The notes beneath the pieces are model-generated. The model was not told where the DNA came from. It saw only the letters and a list, made by a program, of their open reading frames with translations, and did no database searches. The position numbers and the translations under genes were made by a program. A stretch of 12,049 nt of DNA from Prevotella sp. UBA3288 (GTDB lineage Bacteria > Bacteroidota > Bacteroidia > Bacteroidales > Bacteroidaceae). The DNA lies in contig DETM01000003.1 in the NCBI GenBank assembly GCA_002361655.1, positions 31,080-43,128 on the forward strand, read 5' to 3'. Positions 4,369 through 6,310 of this stretch are shown here, piece after piece (within the stretch, counting starts at the first letter, position 1; each line of letters starts with the position of its first letter).

Positions 4369-5511
4369 ATGAAACTATCACAATTCAAATTCAAACTGCC
4401 AGAAGAATTGGTGGCACTCTATCCTGCCCACCGCGCCTTCAAGAATGAAGACGGTACTGTGGAGCGTGTCTATAACCGTGATCAGTGTCGGATGATGGTC
4501 GTACACCGCAAAAGCGGGAAAATAGACATCTTCAAGAAAGATGAAAACGGCAACGATACCGAAGAGCCCATCGTATTCCGCAATATAGTAGACTACTTCG
4601 ACGAGGGCGACACGTTCGTCTTCAACGACACAAAGGTGTTCCCCGCCCGTCTCTACGGTACCAAGGAGAAGACCGATGCCAAGATTGAGGTGTTTCTGCT
4701 GCGCGAATTGAACGAAGAACTGCGTCTGTGGGACGTGCTGGTGGAACCGGCACGCAAGATACGCATCGGCAACAAACTGTTCTTCGATGGTGATGGCCCG
4801 ATGGTGGCCGAAGTCATCGACAACACGACATCTCGTGGCCGTACGCTGCGCTTCCTCTACGACTGTCCGCACGACGAGTTTAAGAGGGAACTGTTCTCCC
4901 TCGGTTCAGCACCATTGCCCCACTATATTGTCGACCACCGACCGGTGGAACCTGACGATACCGAGCAGTTTCAGACTATCTACGCCAAGAACGAGGGTGC
5001 CGTCACTGCGCCGGCCACGGGTCTGCACTTCAGTCGCGAACTGATGAAGATTATGGAGATACGCGGCATAAACTTCGCTTACATCACCGTGCATTGTAGC
5101 CTAGGTTCGTTCGACCCCATCGAGGTGGAAGACCTTACAAAGCACAAGATGAACTCGGAGCAGATGATTGTCAGGGCAGAGGCGTGCCGGACAGTCAACA
5201 GTGCCAAGGCAGAAGGGCATCACATCTGTGCCATCGGCATCAGTACGATGCGTGCCACAGAAACGGCCGTCGGTACTGACGGCATGCTGAAGGAATACCA
5301 AGGCTGGACCAATAAGTTTATCTTCCCGCCATACGACTTCGGTCTGGCCGACACCCTTGTCACCAATTTCTATCATCCTGAATCGACCATGATGATGGCT
5401 ACAGCGGCCTTTGGCGGTTATGACCTGATCACCGAAGCCTACAGTCTGGCCTTACAGCACGAATTCAAGTTCGGCTGCTATGGTGACGCTATGCTTATAC
5501 TGAACGACTAA
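4369..5511 (+). CDS. queA: S-adenosylmethionine:tRNA ribosyltransferase-isomerase QueA
   Basis: It transfers and rearranges the ribosyl group of SAM onto preQ1 at tRNA position 34 to make epoxyqueuosine. Family blocks include FNDTKVFPARL, KIEVFLLREL, LVEPARKIRIGN, TIYAKNEGAVTAPATGLHFS, VEDLTKHKMNSEQ and the C-terminal WTNKFIFPPYDFG, ending with YGDAML. At 380 residues it is longer than the E. coli protein (about 356). The extra length sits in two acidic loops near the N-terminus, around residues 23-35 (FKNEDGTVERVYN) and 55-66 (FKKDENGNDTEE); similar loops are what I recall in Prevotella QueA. The gene ends directly at a heptamer repeat array that leads into folK. Confidence 0.95.
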   Translation: MKLSQFKFKLPEELVALYPAHRAFKNEDGTVERVYNRDQCRMMVVHRKSGKIDIFKKDENGNDTEEPIVFRNIVDYFDEGDTFVFNDTKVFPARLYGTKEKTDAKIEVFLLRELNEELRLWDVLVEPARKIRIGNKLFFDGDGPMVAEVIDNTTSRGRTLRFLYDCPHDEFKRELFSLGSAPLPHYIVDHRPVEPDDTEQFQTIYAKNEGAVTAPATGLHFSRELMKIMEIRGINFAYITVHCSLGSFDPIEVEDLTKHKMNSEQMIVRAEACRTVNSAKAEGHHICAIGISTMRATETAVGTDGMLKEYQGWTNKFIFPPYDFGLADTLVTNFYHPESTMMMATAAFGGYDLITEAYSLALQHEFKFGCYGDAMLILND

Positions 5512-5567
5512 GGTCGAAGGTCGAAGGTCGAAGGTCGAAGGTCGAAGGACGAAGGTCGATGGACGAT
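5512..5567 (+). repeat. Heptamer tandem repeat filling the queA-folK spacer
   Basis: Eight consecutive 7-base units: five GGTCGAA, then GGACGAA, GGTCGAT and GGACGAT. The first unit begins at the base after the queA stop codon. The last two bases of the final unit are the first two of the folK ATG (5566-5568). The last three units are degenerate, the first five identical. A second ATG at 5559, made by the preceding unit, is out of frame with folK. Confidence 0.93.
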
Positions 5568-6072
5568 GTTAAATGTTCAACATACCATATATCTCGGACT
5601 CGGTTCTAATTTAGGCCGGAAAGAAGAGAATATCCGCAAGGCCATCGCCTTGATTGGTGAGCAGATCGGTGCTGTGGTGCGCCAGTCTGCTCTCTATTAT
5701 TCAGAACCGTGGGGGTTCGAATCCGACAGCCCGTTTGTCAATGCCGTCATCTGTGTCAGCACACGGCTGTCGCCTATGCGGCTCCTGCGTGCCACTCAGC
5801 GCATTGAACGACAACTGGGCAAGACCCACGAACATGCCACAGAGCGGAATACGCCGCTTTCAATTCTCAATCCTCAATCCTCAATCCCCAATCCTCAATC
5901 CTCAATCTACCACGACCGTCCCATCGATATCGATATCCTGCTCTACGACGACCGCAAGATAGACCTGCCAGAACTGAAAATCCCTCACCCGCTGATGCAG
6001 GAGAGGGACTTTGTGATGGTTCCGCTTCGTGAAATTCTGTTTACTTACGCAGACCCAGAGCCTTCACGATAG
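5566..6072 (+). CDS. folK: 2-amino-4-hydroxy-6-hydroxymethyldihydropteridine pyrophosphokinase with repeat-encoded loop insertion
   Basis: HPPK transfers pyrophosphate from ATP to hydroxymethyl-dihydropterin in folate synthesis. Visible features are YLGLGSNLG (9-17) at the N-terminus, YYSEPWGF (45-52), FVNAV (57-61) and the signature HDRPIDIDILLYDD (116-129), in which D121 and D123 should bind the two magnesium ions. Residues 99-114 (SILNPQSSIPNPQSSI) are encoded by a heptamer repeat array. By comparison with E. coli HPPK, this stretch lies in catalytic loop 3, just before the metal-binding strand. At 168 residues it is slightly long for the family. The frame is intact, so the enzyme is probably made, although the loop may alter activity. 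The C-terminus (residues 159-168) overlaps the end of rpsO on the other strand. Confidence 0.92.
   Translation: MLNVQHTIYLGLGSNLGRKEENIRKAIALIGEQIGAVVRQSALYYSEPWGFESDSPFVNAVICVSTRLSPMRLLRATQRIERQLGKTHEHATERNTPLSILNPQSSIPNPQSSIYHDRPIDIDILLYDDRKIDLPELKIPHPLMQERDFVMVPLREILFTYADPEPSR
5859..5907 (-). repeat. Heptamer tandem repeat inside the folK coding region
   Basis: Seven units of 7 bases. Read on the minus strand they are GATTGAG, GATTGAG, GATTGGG, three more GATTGAG, and AATTGAA. Because 7 is not a multiple of 3, the array cycles through all three frames and encodes a 7-residue repeat (SILNPQS, SIPNPQS) in folK. The unit matches the AATTGAR array at 2473-2500 except at one base. Confidence 0.93.
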
Positions 6073-6310
6073 CACGATAACGATTGATATCGTTCACATA
6101 GAGATATTTCAGCAACTTACGACGACGGCCTACCATCATGGTCAGCGAACGGGCTGTACTGAAGTCCTTGTGATTATTCTTCAGGTGCTCCGTCAGGTGC
6201 TTAATACGATAGGTGAACAGTGCAATCTGGCTCTCGGCACTACCCGTGTCGGTAGCCGACTTGCCATACTGGCTGAAAATCTCTTGCTTCTTTGCTTGAT
6301 CGAGATACAT
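6041..6310 (-). CDS. rpsO: 30S ribosomal protein S15
   Basis: S15 is a primary 16S rRNA-binding protein that organises the central domain (helices 20-22) and takes part in bridge B4. The protein is 89 residues, the same length as in E. coli. Recognisable blocks are TGSAESQIALFTYRI (22-36), LTEHLKNNHKDFSTARSL (39-56) and GRRRKLLKYL (61-70), which hold the rRNA-binding residues. The ATG at 6308-6310 gives the standard N-terminus for Bacteroidetes. A promoter at 6421-6452 predicts a leader of about 100 bases, long for this phylum and compatible with autoregulation by S15. Its last 32 bases overlap the folK 3' end on the opposite strand. Confidence 0.98.
   Translation of the reverse strand: MYLDQAKKQEIFSQYGKSATDTGSAESQIALFTYRIKHLTEHLKNNHKDFSTARSLTMMVGRRRKLLKYLYVNDINRYRAIVKALGLRK

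Follow-up and report, generated by a model that had tools for sequence, protein, structure and literature searches.

The window, i.e. the whole stretch of DNA that was analysed, comprises 12,049 nt of Prevotella sp. UBA3288 (GCA_002361655.1; contig DETM01000003.1, positions 31080-43128). This genome, referred to below as G000, is represented by a 2.14 Mb assembly of 66 contigs that is 68.6% complete. The window contains an ORF that is assigned to HPPK (FolK) on the basis of sequence profile and fold: the protein matched the Pfam HPPK family (PF01288) with 120.9 bits, and the same identity was obtained from PDB sequence matches and fold comparison. In G000, folK was found once, and a folP-type sequence was also present (PF00809, one match). 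The following features were distinguished at the locus:

5510..5559, + strand: second heptamer array, AAGGTCG x 7.1, in the spacer upstream of folK (TRF, rows up to 5502-5566)
5566..6072, + strand: folK (HPPK) ORF, 168 codons plus stop
5824..5907, + strand: expanded loop 3, residues 87-114, 28 residues (from the loop comparison with relatives, where the commonest length is 8, and from model pLDDT)
5859..5907, + strand: heptamer array, TCAATCC x 6.9, first block of the TCAATTC type (TRF, unit reading, shuffles)
5908..5940, + strand: YHDRPIDIDIL, residues 115-125, presumed metal-binding motif, intact behind the array (alignment)
5960..5962, + strand: stop reached when one unit is lost or two are gained (frame arithmetic)

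A preliminary description, made from the letters of the sequence, had reported seven 7-base units within folK. This count was borne out by TRF, which delimited the TCAATCC array at 5860-5907 with 6.9 copies, 92% matches and 0% indels. Read from position 5859, the blocks are, in order, TTCAATT, three CTCAATC, one CCCAATC and two CTCAATC, the first of these corresponding to a TCAATTC-type unit. The array consists of tandem units alone, over about 49 bases, and its period of seven was above chance according to TRF, self-similarity and shuffling, with a period-7 score of 32 against a best score of 11 among 200 dinucleotide shuffles of the whole window. The array codes for FolK residues 99-114, directly N-terminal of YHDRPIDIDIL. 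The AAGGTCG array makes up the spacer between the upstream ORF (stop at 5509-5511) and the folK start at 5566, and its unit number could influence folK translation.

We take segment 84-89 of E. coli HPPK to be catalytic loop 3, which covers the active site, and YHDRPIDIDIL to be the metal-binding motif of the enzyme. Residues 8-88 of the window FolK paired with E. coli HPPK residues 3-84 in a sequence match (1dy3), and residue 161 paired with E. coli residue 135 in structural matches (e.g. 1hka). By counting, the stretch between FolK residues 88 and 115 corresponds to E. coli 84-89, which is the segment deleted in the solved variant HPPK(V83G/DEL84-89), as named in the titles of 1rtz, 1ru1 and 1ru2; these PDB sequence and structural matches support the earlier placement of the array in the catalytic loop. 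An AlphaFold2 model built from 46 sequences had a mean pLDDT of 83.3, with values below 50 for residues 96-110. The low values in this segment would fit an insert that is probably disordered. In the 46-sequence alignment, K86, R118, D121 and D123, which pair with E. coli R82, R92, D95 and D97 by counting from the PDB matches, were invariant, as were Y115 and D117-L125. Conserved residues were therefore kept on both sides of loop 3, and the loop would tolerate the insert because these flanking residues stay and because the insert, as judged from the model, is probably disordered.

The loop was examined at 109 loci, consisting of 29 relatives from one search and 80 of the 198 from another; one locus, L030, was cut by a contig end, and loop lengths were taken from the other 108. 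The loop was exactly 8 residues long at 44 loci, 9-11 residues at 5 and at least 12 residues at 59, with lengths ranging from 8 to 65 residues among relatives. With the window included and one duplicate removed, 59 distinct long loops were compared. Their self-similarity peaked at offsets of 7, 14 and 21 (z of 17.6, 9.0 and 6.5, respectively), and no other offset up to 24 exceeded a z of 2.1. Codon-level (3n) expansion was discarded, as no autocorrelation peak was observed at 3, 6 or 9. Taken singly, 18 of the 59 long loops were significant with a best offset of 7, 14 or 21, and three further loops were significant at an offset of 15, 18 or 20; the remainder carried other inserts or none that could be recognised. 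The array had at first been regarded as an oddity of one genome, which it is not: other species hold other heptamer units in the same loop. Moreover, in a tree of 108 rows and 126 columns, with 44 of its 105 inner branches open, the firmly placed sister rows L006/L065 and L045/L047 bear different units.

To relate the loops to their genomes, dimers of five folK units, the window's unit not being among these, were counted in 14 genomes. For each of the five units, the richest genome was one that carries that unit in folK, an outcome with a chance of about 1.5e-5 if top ranks were assigned at random. The top carrier held 48 CAAAGTT dimers (next genome, 2), 131 AAGGTCR dimers (next two genomes, 9 and 9), 128 CTCTTCA dimers (next, 39) and 21 CTCAAAC dimers (next, 10), depending on the unit. 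CTCTCAC dimers numbered 76 in a carrier, followed by 50 in the non-carrier G129 and 45 in the carrier G035. Some second carriers ranked low, such as G031, which was fifth for CTCTTCA, and G132, which was level with a non-carrier for AAGGTCR. Because the genome richest in each unit was a carrier, each species seems to fill the loop with heptamers that are dispersed in its own genome. The link of the window's own array to a dispersed family is weaker than for the other carriers. Across 100 genomes, TCAATCC x3 was found only in the folK of G000, which has one more TCAATCC dimer elsewhere, and AAGGTCG x3 was found only near that gene. TCAATTC, present in 24 of the 60 genus genomes, gave 11 dimers in G000 and more in G081, G061, G007 and G080. 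Reversed patterns proved a poor neutral control, the reverse of TCAATTC being common in several genomes. Period 7 was the commonest TRF class in 264 kb of G000 (20 of the 60 rows having 2.5 or more copies of a period no longer than 20). Of the period-7 arrays of G000 (22, window included), 7 lay fully inside ORFs, although ORFs cover 90%. Heptamers were not dense throughout the genus, with 1 period-7 TRF row in 200 kb of G016 and G024, and 1 in 60 kb of G032, G006 and G027.

In the isolate P. communis E15-14 (G124), whose chromosome is complete, the folK unit YTCAGNC gave 50 dimer hits, and the reversed pattern gave 2. Twenty stretches around unit hits, covering 20 of about 29 sites, contained 23 array clusters. 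Sixteen of these, folK included, lay inside ORFs, some being chance occurrences or lying in short ORFs of doubtful status; 13 of these sixteen were read on the coding strand. Heptapeptides of the folK unit were found in L198, L205, L193 and L203 (inositol monophosphatase, isochorismate synthase, a GH97 protein and a UvrD-type helicase). Compared with solved homologues, the heptapeptide coincided with a 10-residue gap just before WVVDPLDGTT in the inositol monophosphatase, and with a 14-residue gap in the isochorismate synthase. The array lay between the N-terminal and catalytic domains of the GH97 protein, between the helicase and nuclease-like domains of the helicase, and near the C-terminal end of L180 (TamB). 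No Pfam family was matched by L191 and L196, two of the eight P. communis ORFs submitted. The array in the L116 ORF (UDP-GlcNAc 2-epimerase-like) showed no clear gap relative to solved homologues, and the L195 ORF (QueE-like) no clear insertion. A larger carrier element was not seen in P. communis, as long flanks were common, among the 23 clusters, only to L200, L202, L204 and L206. The 105-277 bases shared by these four sites perhaps represent a longer dispersed repeat containing heptamers; three other site pairs had 25-28 bases of flank in common.

Since 7 and 3 are coprime, every phase of the unit is read in any frame once an array has three or more units. A unit that lacks stop trinucleotides on the coding strand is open in every frame, so an insertion of 3n total length would be translated as a periodic heptapeptide. 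None of the ten units examined contained a stop trinucleotide when read on the coding strand, and in eight of them TGA occurred on the opposite one. Stops were also counted in 16 of the 18 array loops, L014 and L015 being set aside: there were 3 and 10 (13 in total) in the two coding-strand frames not in use, and 27, 13 and 26 (66 in total) in the frames of the opposite strand. Units with a stop trinucleotide were GGTTAAT in L015 and part of L036 (TTGACAA), both in short arrays.

We consider it probable that, in rumen-type Prevotella, heptamer arrays of the dispersed type landed repeatedly and in frame in an exposed, tolerant loop 3, whose length then moved mainly in frame-keeping steps. A heptanucleotide repeat of a kind dispersed in the genome of the same species would have been inserted in frame into this exposed HPPK loop, each species filling the loop from its own dispersed heptamers. 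With a stop-free unit and a total length of 3n, the insert would be read as a periodic heptapeptide. The unit number would change thereafter, the forms seen differing by three units (21 bases, i.e. 7 residues), presumably because other changes break the enzyme. Such inserts are most likely near-neutral. Their position in the catalytic loop, the spread of lengths from 8 to 65 residues and the differences between sister species are also consistent with loop length altering kinetics or substrate access and being under selection. However, the long loops share no common length, composition or sequence, and the occurrence of a similar peptide in unrelated P. communis enzymes fits passive landing better, which leaves adaptive tuning unlikely. 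Slightly less likely again is a purely local birth, in which the arrays grew by slippage from sequence already present in folK, without copying. It agrees with the confinement of TCAATCC x3 and AAGGTCG x3 to folK of G000 or its vicinity, and the top rank of the carriers could be mimicked if slippage favoured some units throughout a genome; that rank, attained for five units out of five, and the 50 versus 2 hits in P. communis nevertheless argue against it.

As regards the frame-keeping steps that we favour after in-frame landing, the frame arithmetic of the preliminary description proved right: loss of one unit would yield a 129-aa protein ending at the stop at 5960-5962, without DIDIL, and a gain or loss of three units preserves the frame and alters the loop length by 7 residues. 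Gain of one unit would yield a 157-aa protein, also without DIDIL. When folK units were compared across relatives, their number was not constant and differed even among near-identical proteins. The window's species was represented by only four close protein clusters (13 member sequences), among which P0004 (94% identical) corresponds to the window protein plus seven residues, IPNPQSS. Length steps were taken from 240 homologues listed by two protein searches (18 not parsed), in groups with flanks at least 97% alike. One clade exhibited loops of 14, 21, 28 and 35 residues (33 proteins), and other groups had lengths of 7/14 (11 proteins), 30/37 (11 proteins) and 28/35 (4 proteins). Nine of the 25 steps between successive lengths were multiples of seven, versus 3.6 if one in seven were so, and 16 were not. 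At the DNA level, the loops of L063 and L113 differed by a single gap of exactly 42 bases, or six units, with flanks that agreed at 212 of 252 and 115 of 132 bases.

Bacteria have phase-variable tandem repeats at contingency loci, which lie in a reading frame and vary in unit number; repeats of this kind are also named in PMC4679880. The folK array resembles them in both respects, its unit number varying among close relatives, and a single-unit change would truncate the protein, as in a locus where FolK is turned off and on in some cells of a population when one or two units are gained or lost by slippage. Unlike contingency repeats, it lies in a core metabolic enzyme, and phase variation would hardly be expected of a core folate gene. 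Moreover, no folK in two frames was found among the 109 loci, all of which were retrieved by similarity to the intact protein, so that rare OFF alleles in a population could have been missed. Near-identical proteins include the 7-residue ladders, although the protein collection holds open frames only and is hence silent on OFF alleles. Given the lack of two-frame folK at these loci and the presence of the ladders, such switching is very unlikely. Of the two possibilities raised initially, a frameshift switch or an evolving loop, the latter is thus supported by P0004 and the 14/21/28/35 series, and the arrays seem to act by extending the loop seven residues at a time and not as an on-off switch of the gene. 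An assembly artefact of metagenome bins, which might be suspected from the 68.6% completeness and 66 contigs of G000 and from the fact that most named relatives are MAGs, is scarcely credible, since the near-identical P0001-P0004 proteins come from separate contigs, and it is largely refuted by the complete chromosome of P. communis E15-14, which has such a folK array.

Dispersed heptanucleotide repeats have been described in other bacteria, with GGGAATC in Xanthomonas and GGGGA(C/T)T in Nostoc (PMC4692102), and TAACTGA in Beggiatoaceae, some Cyanobacteria and five Bacteroidetes (PMC4679880). In the passages cited, heptamers are the most abundant class among repeats of 5-11 nt in most genomes (PMC4692102, PMC4679880). 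As far as those passages describe them, the Xanthomonas, Nostoc and Beggiatoaceae repeats resemble the Prevotella heptamers in being tandem 7-base units at many sites per genome, with a unit characteristic of the organism and mostly short arrays. They are described there as over-represented in non-coding DNA, whereas the Prevotella units lie in frame, in the same catalytic loop, and species of one genus hold different units at this one loop. In the cited account, Rickettsia palindromic elements are dispersed repeats found in frame in unrelated genes and translated (PMC10969869), and an in-frame position in several unrelated genes was likewise observed in P. communis, among them those for folK, inositol monophosphatase and isochorismate synthase. 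Unlike these elements, which are given there as palindromic and about 150 bp long, the window array is a bare 7-base tandem repeat. Searches of an open-licence collection of papers yielded no report of heptamers in Prevotella genes.

Heptamer repeats are known from bacteria, and how they arise and spread still calls for an explanation. Because related species hold different heptamers in FolK loop 3, this conspicuous site allows the birth, copying and growth of arrays to be traced in one gene. We tentatively suggest, as a possibility that goes beyond in-frame landing, that each of these Prevotella species might have a private heptamer family that is actively copied to new sites, including loops of core enzymes; a gene-less tandem repeat would then supply proteins with in-frame loops as a mobile element does, and FolK loop 3 would be one of the sites where it preferentially lands. 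That the catalytic loop of a core enzyme accepts tens of residues of repeat peptide also provides a natural loop series suited to testing what the HPPK catalytic loop needs.

Several minor features were also observed. A third heptamer array in the window, TTGAAAA x 4.7 (TRF), lies at 2468-2500, at the end of the ORF at 1557-2471. The 3' end of folK overlaps by 32 bases (6041-6072) the 3' end of a convergent ORF at 6041-6310 (89 aa), which we presume to resemble ribosomal protein S15. The C-terminal end of FolK, YADPEPSR, recurs in many homologues, and a period-7 run with a score of at least 14 was also present just upstream of folK in 7 of the 79 named relatives. Among the folK loops of relatives, that of L073 contains a longer direct repeat, those of L013 and L069 contain palindrome-like stretches, and those of L034-L036 contain a repeated non-heptamer block. 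Finally, CCTAACT x3, a reversed control, was abundant in G083 (41 + 41 matches in one genome); other members of the genus thus have an abundant heptamer of their own.
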